Shown: piece after piece, positions 29,301-37,800 of the stretch | Layout of the letters: every line of letters starts with the position of its first letter | Position numbering within the stretch: position 1 is the first letter of the stretch | NCBI RefSeq assembly: GCF_000003815.2 | Contig: NC_049982.1 | Coordinates: 17,060,365 to 17,124,364 of the forward strand | Reading direction: 5' to 3' | DNA from: Branchiostoma floridae | Lineage: Eukaryota > Chordata > Leptocardii > Amphioxiformes > Branchiostomatidae | DNA: 64,000 nucleotides | Position numbers and translations under genes: made by a program | Notes under the pieces: model-generated | What the model saw: only the letters and a program-made list of their open reading frames with translations | Told to the model about the DNA's origin: nothing | Databases searched by the model: none

Positions 29301-31651
29301 TTCTACAGTGTGTCAGGCTTGCCACTACCCACTGAGCCATATCATCAATGCATTGAATGATTGATTGGACATTTACTGATAAATGTATAAGGTATTCCTG
29401 TACTTCCTGTCAATAAGATCCTTGTGCACTATGGACAGAACACTATAATTTGACAGGACATTTCTGTCAGTAAGAACATTGATACTGTATGATACGTGTG
29501 CATATTCATAGTCATACTTCTGTAAAACTGAACTGTTTTGGCAAAAAATAGTAAACAAGTAATTCTGGTGTCTTCTTTTAATCGGTTTATGATAACCAAG
29601 ATCAGATATGGCTACCAACAGAAATATCTCACCTATCTTCACTTGGCAGATTTGAACAGATGCCCTGAAACAAAAACAAAAAATGACCTAATTGTCTTAT
29701 GACCTGTCTTACTAGTAACGGCACTGAACTTTAATCCAACGCAACTTTAATCCAACACTTTTCAGAACCCATCTGTCAGTCAAAAACTAGCCCCGGTATG
29801 CAAATTCCTTTGAGTGTTTTACAAAACCAGTAAGGTATACGACTTAAAACCTTGTAAGTTTGAGCTCACAAAGACCGCACGTTGCAGCGACTGGTTAATC
29901 AATCTTCTGGTATGTTTTCATGCCGTTAATCAAGCCGTGGGAGGAGGGCAGCGATTGTAATTTCAAGCAATTCTACTCTTTGTCCTCACATTACACATTA
30001 ATCATCACAGTAAATATAGTGAAATATTAATAAACTGTCCATCCAGCACAACCAACATGCCTTGAAATGTCCCTCTTTAAAGTACAGGGCCAGGCTTTGT
30101 TACACAAATTCAGTGGAAATCCGAACACACGCCATTTTGAATCATATTTCAGCACGCCCCTTCACCCCTATTTATGAAAGTGATCACATCCAAAGGCCAG
30201 TAGGACGGATCTCACTGGCGAAACCAACAGCCCCCACATGATGGACGTACTGTAGGGAGTTTGTACTGTGTTTTGCGGGTATATTTTTTGGGAGCCATTC
30301 ACAAACTACGTATTTTGCCACCATTTGCTTACCAAACAACTGATGAAAAGTTTCATAGAACGTCATAACTGTGTAGTAGAACAGCAGAACAGATTTGCCG
30401 CTGGTTGATGCATTTTTGGGCCGTGTTTTGATCGCGACTATCAGCAGTTTACTGACATGCCGATTTGCCAAACATTTAACCTTGAGTAAGTGCCTGCCAA
30501 TTGATACAAATTTGTCATTGTAAATATGAAATCCATAGATAAACAGCCTTGTTATATTATTGTGTTGGATTAAAGTTCCACTGGGAATAGAATCCCAAGG
30601 GACTTGCTATCCGTTACACTCTGTTTGAAGTGTTATTTTCTCGCGACAACACAGAAAGTTGCAGGCCAATGCATGTGTAGCAATAGCCGGAGAAACATAG
30701 TAAACAATACACTAAACAGTTTTTGGAATGCGCAAAAGCCCGCTCGTTTATTTATGGTTCAGTTTTGAATACGCTGGAACGTGTTGGATTAAAGTTCAGT
30801 GCCGTTACATCAAAGACCAACAACATAACTTCAAGTGAATTTCAGTTGATATTTTTCTACATCTGGTGTGCAATGTTACAATTTCAGCCAGCACAACAAA
30901 AAAAATTCCCCTGCTGCAGATGAATGTAAATCAGAGAAACATATCATGTTACAATACAATAAGGCCAATAAAATCAATTAAATCACCTGATTACATGTGA
31001 GGAGGCTTATAATTTTGACTACACTATGAAGATAGAAACCCAGTTCTTCAAATTATATCGCTCACCACTTTGAGAGGTACTTTGAAGGAGATAAACCTGG
31101 TCCCTTCCATTTGTCTTCCCATGGGACTGTAATCTAGCCATCTGTGGGGAGGGGGTAAATAAAGCTACATTATTGTCGGATTCACACATTACACTGTATT
31201 TACAGTCAATATAATACATATATACTAGTAATATCTTGTGGTGAAAAATTATGGGAACATTTTTTAAATTCTAAAAGTAATTGTCTATCAAGGGTACTAC
31301 AGTGAGTACTGACACTAACATATGTGTTACTGTACAACAAGCAGCTATCCTGTATTATCTTTTTACCACTCATTCCCCCCGGGGAAATACTAGTAATCTC
31401 CACTAGGCCCACTGCTATCCCCCGACCTAACCTGTGCTTGAAGAAATATTTTTATAATAGCTATATTTCGAAGAAGAAAGAAGGAACCAACAGACTGGAC
31501 CCTCGAGGCGAGGCCGGCCCTCCCCCCGCTGTGAAAAAAAAATCGTGACCACGTTGCGTTGACAAGCACAGAGATTCACAACTAGCATTTTCATGTTCCT
31601 TGTATATACAAGACTTTACACGAACCTGTCTGGTATGCTTCTTGGTGGCAT
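26394..31651 (-). CDS. DUSP11: RNA 5'-triphosphatase, dual-specificity phosphatase 11 (about 330 aa)
   Basis: Ten coding exons on the - strand, all with GT/AG borders and agreeing phases: 31651-31626, 31141-31066, 29664-29633, 29250-29151, 28874-28795, 28486-28443, 27953-27893, 27534-27488, 27073-27001, 26847-26394. The protein begins MPPRSIPDRWLDYSPMG, like the IPERW block of vertebrate PIR1, followed by GTRFISFKVPL and GLVIDLTFTTRYY. The P-loop is HCTHGVNRTG (C127 catalytic, R133 phosphate-binding), then FNKARGHDLERENYLEHL. Residues 181-330 form a disordered tail rich in Arg, Tyr, His and Gly. The family removes gamma and beta phosphates from triphosphorylated RNA in the nucleus, using the cysteine-phosphatase mechanism. 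Exon 9 uses a weak donor (TT followed by GTGGGT), chosen because it alone keeps phase. An alternative last exon is discussed separately. Confidence 0.93.
29717..30805. mobile_element. 1.1-kb non-autonomous TIR DNA transposon
   Basis: The ends are inverted copies beginning ACGGCACTGAACTTTAATCC (29717 onward and, inverted, ending at 30805), at least 23 bp long, each bordered by TA (29715-29716 and 30806-30807). A second copy of AACTTTAATCCAACAC lies just inside the left end, and an inverted one near 30567, giving subterminal repeats. A TA duplication suggests a Tc1/mariner-type mechanism. No transposase is encoded; the open frame at 30184-30471 has no recognisable domain. It lies in the second intron of DUSP11. 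Confidence 0.75.
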
Positions 31652-32406
31652 TTTGGCGCACTAAGAATCTCAAAGAATGGGAAAACGACTCTGAAAGTGA
31701 AACAGTCGGAGATGTCTCGAGCGCTGACGACACGACTACACAGGTTTCGGTGACGCCAGACTAATCTACTTTTACAGTTTTATAGGAGTCGACTGTTCCT
31801 CGATGAATCTCTATCTCTTTTCTTTTACATACGTACTAAAACATAAAAAGTGAATCTTGATACTCATATTTTGAAAATGCCAAGATTGATATCTGATTTA
31901 CAACATCTAATGTATGCTTGTCTCTTTTTACAATTTCCTCATACAGGAAGTAATGGCGCAACACCCTCCATGGTAAATTATAGTGGTATATTCCCACTCT
32001 GAGAATGATGGGAAATTTGTCATAGTCTATTTTAAAAGGGGGGAGGACAATGATGGCATATCGTATTGATGAAAGTAATAAACACACAGGATAGTAACTG
32101 AACACTCATAGAGTAAGGTAAACTTAAGCATTCTGAAGCAAAGCATGTTTCTTTGGATATCATGATATCACACTTCTGATACATTTGTACAAATCCTGTT
32201 ATCCATGATTTACCTATTATTTAACATAATGGTATGGTCCAACTGATGCCGCCATCTTTGAGAACAACCGACACGAGAACTTCTGAGAAGAGAGAAAGTT
32301 GAGTATAAAAGGTAATGAAATGACAGCCTCTTAAACAATTCTTCATCTTATCTGCGTGTATGTTAAGAACCATTAAATGCATATCTTATGTCATGGAGAT
32401 GCAAAA
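31652..32406. other. Upstream region of DUSP11
   Basis: Contains the DUSP11 5' UTR and promoter just above 31651. No gene seen. A shared promoter with BUB3 is possible, because the BUB3 start exon is preceded by a splice acceptor and so has an upstream non-coding exon, but its position was not identified. Confidence 0.4.
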
Positions 32407-33390
32407 CTACGAAAGCTTCACCCTCCTTTTTCAGCACTCGGTTCCAGTACTGAAGATGGCTTCAGCACTGGATTTCCAGTGCTGAATGTTCGTCAGCACT
32501 GGTTTTCCAGTGCTGACGCGCTCTCAGCACTGGAAAAGCCGGCGTCAGCACGGGAAACCGAGTGCTTGGACGATTTTCTGTGCTGGTAACTCAAATCATT
32601 TCCAGAAGGGCTGTAATTATGATTTGAAATCACACACAATAAATTTTGCAATCCATTGTTAATGACATTCTATCTTTTATAGATATAAATCCAATTCCAA
32701 CACGTTACACAACAATAACTCAGATTTGGACTTTTGATGAACTTGGACCATATCTATATTAGAATTTTTGCCAAGTACTGCTCTCAGTACTTTTACAAAA
32801 TTATATCTAACTCGTATACATTATACATATGTCAAGTTTCAATTGCACATCTGCACAACTTCGGTTTCTTGGCATCAGGTTACTTTTTTTTTATGCGAAT
32901 CTTCACCAAGTACCGCTCTCATCACTAGGACACTGCAGTTCTGGAAAGACTTCAGCACTGGTTTGAAGATCATTCCAGTGCTGAAAAGACGTCAGCACTC
33001 GTTTTCCAGTGCTGAAGATCCCTCAGCACTGGTGTTCCAGTGCTGTAAGTGTCCCTGAGCACTGGTAAATCCAGTGCGGAAGGTGAAGCTTTTGTATATC
33101 AGCACTCGGTTCCAGTGCTGACAGCGATTTCAGCACTGGGTAACTAGTGCTGACGGCAGACTAGCACTGGAAAACCAGTGCTGAAATGAGTTCAGCACTG
33201 GAAAACGAGTGCTGGAACAGTATTCAGCACTGGAATTCCAGTCCTGACGGAGCTTCAGCACTGGAACAGAGCCATTCAGCACTGGAAAACCAGTGCTGAA
33301 CTTTCTTCAGCACTGGAAAGCCAGTGCTGAGGGGGCTTTGAGCATTGAATCAGCACTGGAATACCAGTGCGGAAGGTGAAGCTTTCGTAG
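32407..33390. repeat. Palindromic 31-bp tandem repeat element, two clusters
   Basis: About 18 units built on CAGCACTGG-N4-CCAGTGCTG. Cluster 1 units start at 32432, 32463, 32494, 32524 and 32553. Cluster 2 units start at 32952, 32992, 33023, 33057, 33100, 33131, 33162, 33193, 33225, 33256, 33277, 33308 and 33351. The commonest spacing is 31 bp: a 22-nt palindrome plus a 9-nt spacer. Some stems extend into the spacer with matched changes: 32461-32486 pairs TTC with GAA, while 32491-32518 pairs CGTC with GACG. The whole block is bounded by perfect 16-bp inverted copies of CTACGAAAGCTTCACC (32407-32422 and 33375-33390). Between the clusters (32586-32940) is unrelated AT-rich DNA. No coding potential. 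Confidence 0.9.
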
Positions 33391-33675
33391 ACTTGCCATG
33401 GAGATAGATACACATCTTGCGTCATGAATGTGATTTAAAATCTACTATACTCTTTTATGTCGATGGGACTGTCGAGGGACTAAAACTTGAACAAAAGGGG
33501 GTGGGTAAACTTAAGAGAGACAAACTCTGTAGCCTAGATACCAGGCTGTTTCAAATACCTGCAGGCCAACTCCTCAGCTATAGGGCCAACATACCCCGGT
33601 GAAATTCTACATCTGGAACCCCTGAGTTACTTACTTAGAACATGCACAAGCACAACAGATATTTATATACGCTGT

Positions 33676-33730
33676 GGCTATTGACACACTCAGTGTGCCA
33701 ATAGCCAAACAGGCTATTGACACACCGAGA
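33676..33730. repeat. Palindromic array, 37-bp period (left part)
   Basis: One complete 31-nt near-perfect palindrome (33676-33706; GGCTATTGACACACT and its complement) is followed, after a 5-nt spacer, by a half unit starting at 33712. The half unit breaks off after GGCTATTGACACAC. The matching right half occurs at about 34537-34556. Confidence 0.85.
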
Positions 33731-33914
33731 TGCCAGTCAGCCAATCAGAGCTTGTAACATGCCTTTCCGGCAATATTTTACACAAGCAATAGTTGATTAA
33801 ACATTGTTCGGAAGATTAGACATTGGAATCTTTGAATCTAATGGAATGAACGGACGTATTCAAGTTATGCCCTACATTTGGATACCTAATAATACAGCCT
33901 TCATCTTGTATGTT

Positions 33915-33989
33915 TGACGTAGCGTAGTTGATAGAGCGTTGACCCGGGAATTCATGATACCAGCTCCTACCCCGTTCGAGTCCGCGCCG
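33915..33989 (+). other. tRNA-like sequence (tRNA-derived repeat or tRNA pseudogene)
   Basis: TAGCGTAGTTGATAGAGCG resembles a Pol III A box, and GTTCGAGTCCG (33974-33984) matches the B box, at a tRNA-like distance of about 54 bases. A T-rich tail with several T runs follows (33993-34019). Acceptor and T stems do not pair well, so a functional tRNA is unlikely; a SINE head fits better. Confidence 0.45.
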
Positions 33990-34533
33990 GAGTTTTTTTT
34001 AATTTTTTTGTTTTTTTGTTTAATTTTTCTTGTCCCTTTTTAAACATCCATTTGATATAAGAATATTTTATATATAAACAACTTTTAAAGTTTCTGTTAA
34101 CAATATAAACCAAAAATAACACTGACCACAAAACATGTCATAATTTTCGGCCGTGTGGTTCCGGCGCTATCGGCAGCGACTCGGAAGAATATTTCTTTCA
34201 CATTAAAAATAATGGAGGTAAAACAACAACTATAACTTCGCTTCCTTAGTGATGTAAGTTTTGAGGCCGAAAATTCTCCAATATGGCAGGAATTCGTCGG
34301 TAAACACAGCTCAAAACGTGTTCCTAACCGATCCAACATGGCTGCCATGATCACATGCGGTGACAGTAAAACTAGCACCCTATATGATGGCAGATTCCGA
34401 TGTTTAAAATTGTGCCGTAAACACGTGAAAAAGATCGTATTTTGGGTTGATAATGGACACAGGATGCCATTTGTATTTTTCAGAGTGTTGATTGTCAAAT
34501 ATAATCGTAAGATTTCCTCATTTTAGTGGTTTC

Positions 34534-34666
34534 TATCACTGGGTGTGTCAATAGCCTAAACAGGCTATCGCCACACTGAGTGTGCCAATAGCCTAAACAA
34601 GCTATCGACACACTCAGTGTGTCAATAGCCTGTTAGGCTATTGACACACTGGGTGTGTCAATAGCC
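34534..34666. repeat. Palindromic array, 37-bp period (right part)
   Basis: A half unit ending at 34556 is followed by three complete 31-nt palindromes at 34563-34593, 34600-34630 and 34636-34666. All are variants of GGCTATTGACACACT paired with AGTGTGTCAATAGCC, with 5-6-nt spacers. Confidence 0.85.
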
Positions 34667-34821
34667 TCGCTCATTTATCTATTCAAGTCTCAAGATGGAG
34701 GTCTGGCATCCGGGCTAAGATCAGTAAATGCTTTGCTTGAATTCATTATTTACAATTGTTTGAAAAGAAAATGACCCAGAATATTTTCCATTCCTTCTAG
34801 GAAACGTACCAGGCCACAAAT

Positions 34822-37800
34822 ATGCCGACTGTTGCCGAAACGCCGAACGAGTTCAAGTTGAACAACTGCCCGACAGACGGCATCTCAGCGGTGAAGTTCA
34901 GCCCAACCAGCTCCCAGCTGCTGCTGGTGTCGTCATGGGACTGTTCGGTGAGACTGTACGACGTGGCCGGGAACAACCTCAGGAACAAGTACACACATTC
35001 CAGCGCCGTCCTCGACTGTTGCTTCTTTGTAAGTCTGCAAGTTTTGTTTGAAAGTGACTAACCTACATTATCATATAGCCAGGCGCCGCAGACCATTCAG
35101 AAGGCCCCACGTTGGTTATGACGCCGTAACACATAGATTTCGGCCAGGCCGGTGTGTTAGCTCCTTCTGATTGGTGTGTAAGCTCCTTCTGACCGGCACC
35201 AGTGTCGATTTGCATCGACGCATTCTGACCAATTAGAAGGAGCGATACACACAAGAAATTAAGGGATATGCAGACATTGGCCAATCAAAAGGAGCAAAAC
35301 ATATGCCAGAGTAGAGGGAATAAGTACAGACTGCAAGGGGGGAATGGCTCCTTCTGTTAACATTGGTAATGCAGGGCTCGAAATTCATTTTTGGGATTAG
35401 GTGCACTGGTGCACCCAGCTCAACAAATTGGGTGCACCAAAATATTTTTGGGTGCACCACTTAAATTTAAGTAGAATGCCAAGAAAACCTAATAACAAAA
35501 CTGCTGCCCCTACGTTCTCAAGGCTATAACACTTAGACGTCAAGAATATGATCAGATGTATACTAGCATACTTGATATCTTTCCATACATAAACCTAAGA
35601 AAATATTTGGGTGCACCCAGTATTTCAAGCCCTGTAATGGGTTTTGTTGTTCTAAGACTGCAATGTTTCGAATATTTTCTTTTGGTTTTTGGTTTAAAAA
35701 TGCAATCTGTAATCTTACAAATGTATGTATCAAAGAACAAAGGTGAATTTTCAGAAATTCGACAAAGGAATTCACACGTATAGTACCAAGGGATCTATGT
35801 GTCATACAGGAGTTTGCAAGTTTGGGTAGACTATATGATAATAACTTTAATGACCCACCTGTTAATGACCCATCTCATAAAAGGTTTTATTTGGTGGTTA
35901 TAGCAAAGGACCAGGCGTTATGACACCATATACACCTCGGGGCAGGTCATTAACCCTTAAAAATAAGTTAATTGTTACTTTCAAAACTCTTAGAATTACG
36001 TATGATAATGAATTTGAGCTTTCAACATATATGGGATAGATCAGGTATCAAGGTTGGGTGAGTAATTTTGCCATCAGGTTGAATTCTTGGGGTGTTGAAA
36101 AGTACTGAAGAAAGTAGAAATATACGTATTTAAGCTCTTTCGCATATTCAACTACGTACGTATGCATGGGGACCAATGGACGCTAAACTGGATAGTACTA
36201 GTGAGTGAGTGAGTGAGTATGATTCGCAGGCGACAGGAACACCGTCTCCAGACTAGCCTTTGCCTTTGACATTTTACCCAGGGTTCCTGTTGCCTTGCAT
36301 GCATAGTCGATTAGCCTGTAACAAACAGGACGAAAGAACGTTCTGAGAAAACCATAAAGAGTGAAAATAATCCTCCACCCTTTCTATCCTTGACAGAGAA
36401 TCCAAGCATACAAGTATTTTGTTTGAACCTTTATTATCAGTTGACTTGAAAATGTAAGCAGATACACGTATTCACACCATTTGTTATAATACATGTATGT
36501 CTGGGTGTTACTTTACACCTCTGTTCAAAATCTGATTTTGGTTGTCCCCTTCCAGGACCCAGTGCACCCCTACAGTGGTGGACTGGACCAGATGCTGAAG
36601 ACATGTGACCTGAACACAAGCCAAGGTGAGATGGAACCAGAGGGGTCTGTGCTGTGATTGGTTGGATAAGAGGAAGGGGTTCATTGAGGGCATTGCCATG
36701 TTGTTATAAAATACAGCTATTGGTAAGATTCTGTCCTGATGCCTGCCTGTTCTTGCACCCAGAAACTGTTGTTGGGAACCATGATGCACCCATCCGCTGT
36801 GTGGAGTACTGTCCTGATGTCAACGTGGTCATCACAGGCAGCTGGGACCAGACTGTCAAGCTGTGGGACCCACGCACACCCTGTAACGCTGGGTCCTTCT
36901 CACAGCCGGGGAAGGTAGGATTGTGGAATGCTTCTGGAGAGCCTGTAACGTGTTTGAAATCAAAATCAAACTTCAGTGGTATTTTTGATAGGTGCTTGAG
37001 AATTGGATTGGTTTTGAAAGATAATTGGCAAGAAGAGTTACACCACTGTTGCCAAACTTGGTCATTCTTGTTGTTAACTAAAAGAGGTGGTATTTGCTTC
37101 CAGGTGTACACAATGGCAGTTACCGGTGATCGACTGATAGTGGGAACAGCAGGTAGACGAGTGTTGGTGTGGGACCTGAGGAACATGGGATATGTGCAAC
37201 AGAGACGAGAGTCCAGCCTGAAGTACCAGACCCGCTGCATCAGGGCCTTCCCCAACAAGCAGGGCTATGTGCTCAGCTCCATAGAGTGAGTACAGTTGCA
37301 CTTGTGGCCATGGAGTTTTTTTTTTTTTCTCCATAAAGTAAGTACATGTAGAGTTGCTTCTTTGAGGAAATCAAACCTGGTTTTATCATGGACCAGTGGA
37401 ACTTCCATACAGGTAGACATCGGAAATGCCTGCATAAATGCCTGATCAAAGAGTATATACATGTGTGTTTAATCCCTCATGCCTTGTCACAGGGGCCGGG
37501 TAGCTGTGGAGTATTTAGACCCCAGCCCTGAGGTACAGAAGAAGAAATATGCCTTCAAGTGTCATCGCATCAAGGAGGACGGAATTGAGAAGATCTACCC
37601 TGTCAATGCCATTGCCTTCCATAGCATGCACAACACATTTGCTACAGGTGCGCTAGTTCAGTCTAACAACGAGCCTACTCTTTCTGTAGTTTCAATGGTG
37701 TCAGTGAAGTGGGGAATATTACAGAGATTATAGTGTTGCTGTTTTTGTCATAATGGAAATAAGTCTTAGTTATCTCATGGCATGCATAGATACCTGTGTA

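Follow-up and report, generated by a model that had tools for sequence, protein, structure and literature searches.

A non-autonomous, probably Mutator-like transposon family in Branchiostoma floridae carrying an ordered array of palindromic repeats predicted to bind a dimeric protein

A 996-bp non-autonomous DNA transposon was identified at positions 32401–33396 of the window (the whole stretch of Branchiostoma floridae DNA that was analysed, 64,000 nucleotides long), with an array of short palindromes, repeated mostly every 31 bp, in a subterminal position within it. The family is probably of the cut-and-paste type, and the pattern of conservation among its copies makes it probable that the phased palindromes are sites for dimers of a protein encoded by the element. 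More tentatively, and at rather less than even strength, the family may represent a chordate transposon lineage in which a dimeric element protein coevolves with its sites, set out in an ordered and helically phased array, with the half-site, both terminal inverted repeats (TIRs) and an internal TIR copy having switched while the geometry of the array was nearly kept.

The element is bounded by 22-bp TIRs at 32401–32422 and 33375–33396 that agree at 20 of 22 positions, and an exact 9-bp target-site duplication (TSD) lies outside both. A first-pass annotation of the window had placed the repeats inside 16-bp inverted ends; inverted ends do exist, but the 16 bp correspond to the inner part of the TIRs, and the TSD was absent from that account. 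In a scan for exact duplications of 8–10 bp outside TIRs with no more than 4 mismatches in 22 and ends 150–3000 bp apart, one such structure was found in the window and none in 20 letter-shuffled windows.

The array itself was as the annotation had described it, with 18 half-sites, mostly at 31-bp steps and in two clusters. Each unit is a 22-bp palindrome consisting of a 9-bp half-site, about four A/T-rich bases and the inverted half-site. Between 32432 and 33351 there are 18 left half-sites with at most one mismatch to CAGCACTGG; a right arm (at most two mismatches) is present in 16 of these units and absent in two (32525 and 33256). Of the 17 distances between successive starts, 9 measure exactly 31 bp. 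The two clusters lie around a middle with 67 % A+T. Twelve of the 22 perfect hairpins (stem of at least 9) in the 64 kb were inside the element, and ten letter-shuffled windows had a mean of 3.6 overall. Aligned as inverted repeats, the left and right arrays scored 101 (reached by none of 300 controls); the direct orientation scored nearly as well (96, reached by 1 of 300) because the units are palindromic. The longest stop-to-stop frame in the window copy was 105 aa, two tested ORFs overlapping the element matched no Pfam family, and no viral contig matched a pattern made up of a unit and the half-site that follows it. The features of the element and its flanks are as follows.

32392–32400, plus strand: left copy of the TSD, CATGGAGAT, an exact 9-bp match to 33397–33405 that abuts the TIR.
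32401–32422, plus strand: left TIR, GCAAAACTACGAAAGCTTCACC, agreeing with the right TIR at 20 of 22 positions; an identical or near-identical left end is present in 25 copies.
32432–32567, no strand assigned: left subterminal palindrome array, with units starting at 32432, 32463, 32494, 32525 (one-armed) and 32546.
32590–32940, no strand assigned: A+T-rich noncoding core, the left part of which is unmatched in the core of most copies from other subfamilies.
32953–33079, no strand assigned: inner right array of four units, at 32953 (with a 13-nt centre), 32993, 33024 and 33057.
33071–33096, minus strand: internal copy of the right terminal block, identical to 33364–33389 at 25 of 26 positions.
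33100–33372, no strand assigned: outer right array, with units at 33100, 33131, 33162, 33193, 33225, 33256 (one-armed), 33277, 33308 and 33351.
33375–33396, minus strand: right TIR, reading GCAAGTCTACGAAAGCTTCACC on that strand and agreeing with the left TIR at 20 of 22 positions.
33397–33405, plus strand: right copy of the TSD, CATGGAGAT, an exact 9-bp match to the left copy.

Several other features were observed nearby. A second element, at 33671–34671 of the window, has palindromic tandem units at both ends, each approximately GGCTATTGACACACT-N-AGTGTGTCAATAGCC plus a spacer; this spacer is mostly TAAACA and is kept, unlike the spacers of the main element. The second element also has inverted ends and a possible 3-bp duplication, GCT. 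Inside it, at about 33918–34010, a tRNA-like stretch followed by a T run was noted by eye and is perhaps a SINE; ARAGORN called no tRNAs there or elsewhere in the window. About 1.4 kb downstream of the main element, at 34822–35028, lies an exon that starts with ATG and encodes part of a WD40 protein, which looks like BUB3. A 22-bp repeat, GGTGTGTAAGCTCCTTCTGATT, is present in two copies at 35151–35192.

The past mobility of the family is demonstrated by its ends, its TSDs and its dispersed copies. A search of the assembly (513 Mb, 431 contigs) with the element gave at least 189 matches (the best 40 of 489 candidates were scored), and the copy set comprised the window copy and 38 further copies that were fetched. 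Both ends were found in 25 of this first set of 39, and of those, 16 had a perfect 9-bp TSD and 2 a TSD with one mismatch. Extending 12 of the 14 incomplete copies to 10 kb showed 5 of them to be complete, each with a perfect TSD. The two-ended copies examined thus numbered 31, of which 21 had a perfect 9-bp TSD, 2 a TSD with one mismatch, 3 a TSD offset by a few bases (L009, L029 and L035), 2 a TSD with two mismatches and 3 none (L014, L030 and L083); random flanking 9-mers were identical 5 times in 12,500 draws. The two copies with two mismatches, L040 and L042, share the same imperfect TSD and are probably a single duplicated locus. L083 is a two-ended copy of 1893 bp that was checked for ends, TSD, units and open frames and stands outside the 30-copy position count given below. 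The sequence of the TSD differs from site to site. Full copies with the same ends and a TSD were what the first-pass annotation had advised looking for, and their presence elsewhere in the genome bears out its suggestion of a transposon carrying a hairpin-like array.

The ends of the family are conserved and asymmetric; facing inwards, they are GCAAAACTAC and GCAAGTCTAC. An exact match to the 16-bp inner TIR occurs at 86 sites in the genome, 43 on each strand, and a reversed control pattern at none. Neighbouring TIR sites within 15 kb formed 32 convergent pairs and none in any other arrangement, and 28 of the 32 pairs were less than 2 kb apart. The internal TIR copy was present in 29 of the 30 copies examined for it, and an accidental or nested origin of this block in the window copy alone was rejected on that ground. 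The number of units per copy was 7–20 (one counting rule, 25 copies). Some copies have been interrupted: L013 by about 3.4 kb, both insert ends beginning with AGGTATTCCAAC inwards, and L048 by sequence with a reverse-transcriptase ORF. Two long TIR pairs, of 7.7 kb on C19 and 11.8 kb on C5, look like family copies split by insertions, and the longest frame in the 3 kb read of the C19 pair was 168 aa.

None of the copies examined yielded a transposase of the family. Scans of three long ORFs located within or next to copies gave the nested reverse transcriptase in L048, C2H2 zinc fingers in L054 and no Pfam match in L047; one of the five copies completed by extension holds a reverse-transcriptase ORF. 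The frame in L054 (L054:2346–8474) is open for 2043 codons, encodes many C2H2 zinc fingers and lies beside the transposon copy. The MULE domain, PF10551, had 27 matches in the genome, all above the curated cut-off and several in frames of 352–1748 codons. Twelve of these 27 loci (L071–L082) were inspected, and neither an array nor a paired TIR of the family was found within 1.5 kb; the stray matches there were one unit-like match in L074 and single end-like decamers in several loci. A MULE-domain match is by itself no proof of a mobile element.

The 9-bp TSD of the family falls within the range of 8–11 bp given for MULEs in the available text of PMC6446971, a length that is not exclusive to MULEs. 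Because a superfamily is defined by its transposase and none was found, the family is classified as non-autonomous (MITE-like) TIR transposons that bear an unusual array and are probably Mutator-like. The 9-bp TSD and the repeats near the ends are in keeping with Mutator/Foldback-like elements such as Tm1 (PMC3169594), and the family may also be Foldback-like. The 27 MULE-domain matches bear on whether chordates host MULEs, since a 2019 survey, in its available text, reports that no MULE transposases were detectable for B. floridae (PMC6446971). No description of the family was found in the literature searched; most subscription papers and Repbase lay outside that search, and the family may already be named there.

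To compare constraint along the element, the copies were aligned and divided into arms, unit centres, spacers, TIR copies and core. On these alignments, half-sites and TIR copies were shown to evolve at a lower rate than spacers and core. From unit to unit of the window copy, the arms are 90–92 % identical, and the 7-nt interiors of eight 9-nt spacers are 26.5 % identical, compared with 23.8 % for shuffled letters. Unit centres are also richer in A+T than spacers (63 of 72 versus 44 of 89 letters, p=3e-7). A contrast between arms and spacers was also found in a set of seven same-subfamily copies, consisting of the window copy and six copies 90.2–98.3 % identical to it at ungapped columns. Here the variable columns were 0 of 44 in the TIRs, 0 of 17 in the internal TIR, 35 of 274 in the arms, 45 of 193 in the spacers, 15 of 64 in the centres and 71 of 313 in the core (arm versus core, p=0.0018; arm versus spacer, p=0.004; spacer versus core, p=0.91), in a test that omits L013 with its insertion of about 3.4 kb, L015 with its shortened right array and every column in which two or more copies have a gap.

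Among 16 copies from other subfamilies, 14 differ from the window copy at 4–12 % of arm positions and 25–32 % of spacer positions (p<=0.0012 each; as in all these comparisons between copies, the p-values are not independent because the copies share ancestry). The other two, L040 (p=0.64) and L042 (p=0.33), show no contrast between arms and spacers. Within the window copy's own subfamily, the contrast is present in L011 (p=0.047), L012 (p=0.0016) and L016 (p=0.0046) but not in L014 (p=0.14), whereas L009 and L010 are too similar to the window copy for it to be judged, and L015, which is badly aligned and has a shortened right array, shows the reverse (arms 0.39 versus spacers 0.27, p=0.063). 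CpG decay was rejected as the source of the contrast, which persisted after removal of CpG columns in all 12 copies chosen for retest (p<=0.022), a choice that excludes the six contrast-less copies L040, L042, L014, L009, L010 and L015. In the 14 other-subfamily copies the core stretch near the spacers differs at 32–53 % of positions. Spacers therefore change less than the adjoining core across subfamilies, which suggests that they may not be wholly free.

The positions of the units are conserved as well. Measured from the left end, units stand at exactly 31, 62 and 93 bases in 24 of the 30 copies; measured from the right end, they stand at 45–46, 89, 120, 172 and 203–204, again in 24 of 30. 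Irregular steps recur across copies too, such as the step of 52 caused by a one-armed unit. In the 14 contrast-showing copies of other subfamilies, 1–2 of 135 spacer positions are gapped. Whole blocks have been gained or lost in some copies: 8 of the 12 CpG-retest copies have 55–94 indel columns, and L016 has 137. A distance of 31 bp is about three helical turns of DNA, so the dyads of successive units would face one side of the molecule. Half-site letters and unit positions that are kept while spacers drift are consistent with the protein-binding array that the first-pass annotation had listed as one option.

Two classes of inner TIR were found among 30 copies, GCTT in 24 and ACCT in 6. In the 29 copies having an internal TIR copy, the two classes are never mixed among the left, right and internal TIR; the right TIR of L040, TCTT, is one letter off GCTT. 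The six ACCT copies do not necessarily represent independent events, and gene conversion among TIR copies could be an alternative source of part of this co-switching.

A more extensive switch separates the family from a sister family, which was first met in L058. A search with the right array of the sister family gave at least 69 matches (the best 40 of 191 candidates were scored). Its left end is GCAAAACTAC, its right end is GCAAGGCTAC in 6 of 8 copies, and the interior of its TIR differs from that of the main family. All 12 sister loci are two-ended, 8 with a perfect 9-bp TSD, 2 with one mismatch, 1 with a TSD offset by a base and 1 with none. The sister copy at L059:1053–1851 has its left end repeated in tandem 72 bp apart, with a 9-bp TSD flanking the outer one.

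The sister half-site is CRTCACTGG on both arms, compared with CAGCACTGG in the main family. In the 12 sister copies 200 half-sites were CRTCACTSG and 8 were CAGCACTSG, whereas in 30 copies of the main family the counts were 3 and 846 respectively. The sister motif occurs on both sides of the unit (72 left and 60 right arms in 8 copies). The half-sites of the sister family keep to main-family positions: 31, 62 and 93 counted from the left end (9 of 12 copies) and 46, 172–173 and 203–204 counted from the right end (12 of 12). A search pattern of the sister TIR type detected an internal TIR copy in each of 8 copies. The outer triplets of the two arms are complementary in 299 of 383 main-family units versus 11 of 121 sister units, the other 110 sister units being non-complementary. 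In the sister units, half-site identity and position are thus kept and pairing is not. In the copies compared, half-site and TIR were shown to differ jointly between the families.

Under the reading that we consider probable, each palindrome would be the site for a dimer of an element-encoded DNA-binding protein, either the transposase or a VANC-like accessory protein, which would be supplied in trans by an autonomous relative. The 31-bp period would set the dimers on one face of the DNA, and the ordered array, the TIR and the internal TIR copy would together build a recognition or synaptic complex. The array may serve in end recognition, synapsis or anti-silencing. A shift in the specificity of the protein would be expected to carry the half-sites and the TIR copies along with it.

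Among the alternatives, the least improbable, though still unlikely, is that, in the manner of VANC, an accessory protein and not a transposase binds the array and lifts silencing from the element. Tandem short motifs in Arabidopsis VANDAL elements are bound by VANC and vary by family, according to the available text of PMC5735166. The switch of motif between the main and sister families resembles a change of this type; however, the units keep nearly constant distances from the ends, an arrangement that suits end recognition at least equally well. To our knowledge, moreover, there is no VANC-like gene outside plants.

We consider it very unlikely that the palindromes are a functionless tandem array that grew within a transposon, its units being alike through slippage and gene conversion. 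Unit number does differ among copies, as noted above, and Foldback-like internal tandem repeats can spread as satellites, as with Tetris in the available text of PMC4079207. Slippage and conversion would, however, homogenise the spacers too, and these are near random between units. Among close copies the spacers vary like the core while the arms do not, and the unit positions recur in other subfamilies and in the sister family. According to the first-pass annotation, unpaired substitutions, a lack of other copies sharing the ends and a lack of transcripts would together have pointed to a decaying local satellite. The substitutions are indeed unpaired, as described below, but copies with shared ends do exist, and the large number of these copies together with the conserved half-sites indicates that the array is not a decaying local satellite.

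That the array was co-opted near genes to bind a transcription factor or an insulator protein of the host appears highly improbable. Palindromic, helically phased sites look like dimer sites, and the WD40-protein exon starts 1.4 kb downstream, but the array travels together with the element, and two families that are otherwise laid out alike have different motifs in one genome; a host factor that tracked the TIR type would be unexpected.

Least credible of all is a hairpin-RNA or small-RNA locus in which an RNA or DNA stem is under selection. The units can fold, with many stems predicted for the whole strand, and the first-pass annotation had proposed both a small-RNA locus and covariation of the flanking bases such that the pairing itself is kept. 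It was found that outer positions 2–6 pair in 20 of 80 cases in the window, versus 21.0 expected when units are swapped, and that 14 of 288 arm letters deviate there with none compensated. Across the seven copies, 33 arm pairs are variable: 30 combine one Watson–Crick type with other combinations, 3 have none and 0 have two types, so that no compensatory change was seen. Nine of the 33 involve a one-sided change to G-T, which RNA pairing can tolerate. Selection for pairing was therefore rejected by the unit shuffles in the window, by the pairs across seven copies and by the non-complementary outer triplets of the sister family. No Rfam match was found in 31500–36000, which leaves the proposed small-RNA locus without support, and stems of 9–12 bp are short for Drosha or Dicer substrates.

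A CRISPR array, which would require a prokaryotic locus with unique, independently acquired spacers, was rejected for this 513-Mb genome, where spacers align in order between dispersed transposon copies and the window contains animal-type genes; the first-pass annotation had called the resemblance superficial.

Returning to the probable reading of dimer sites for an element-encoded protein, sequence alone was here sufficient to separate constrained half-sites and spacing from drifting spacers. The existence of two families with a switched site and near-intact geometry makes the binding of the repeats, and their coevolution with a protein, directly testable; the available text of PMC3688188 calls the role of Foldback and Phantom repeats as binding sites untested. 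If true, the more tentative proposal of a coevolving lineage would represent, in an animal, the equivalent of specificity switching in VANDAL/VANC and would lend support to a disputed report of Mutator-like elements in lancelets.

Known systems share parts of this organization. Minisatellite-like tandem repeats have been described in amphioxus as 'mirages', but these duplicate exon/intron boundaries in units of 10–160 bp, and the available text of PMC3087553 does not mention palindromes or TIRs. Rehavkus and Phantom MULEs have TSDs of 8–10 bp, and Rehavkus and some Phantom elements have a minisatellite near one end; they are, however, placed by transposase sequence, which is missing here, and Rehavkus is listed from arthropods and annelids (PMC6446971, available text). 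The ends of Galileo and Foldback of Drosophila are internally repetitive, and the Galileo repeats hold extra transposase (THAP) sites (PMC3688188 and PMC4079207, available text). For Galileo there is experimental evidence of multiple transposase sites in such repetitive ends (PMC3688188). Galileo differs in belonging to the P superfamily, in its TIRs of more than 1 kb and in having three sites reported in the end studied (PMC3688188). Tm1, a Mutator/Foldback element of root-knot nematodes, has mostly 9-bp TSDs, composite TIRs in which tandem repeats come after short, asymmetric terminal motifs, and mostly non-autonomous copies of up to about 1 kb. Its repeats are instead 13–15 bp long and of one motif, phased palindromes with variable spacers are not described in the available text, and it has a copy with a Phantom-type transposase, of which none was found in the amphioxus family (PMC3169594). 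The motifs of VANDAL elements differ from the present units in being 8–9 bp long and non-palindromic by eye, the elements measure several kilobases and the binder is an anti-silencing factor. VANDAL elements nevertheless resemble the amphioxus families as transposons with repeated short motifs that vary between related families, and coevolution of these target motifs with the protein has been proposed, according to the available text of PMC5735166.
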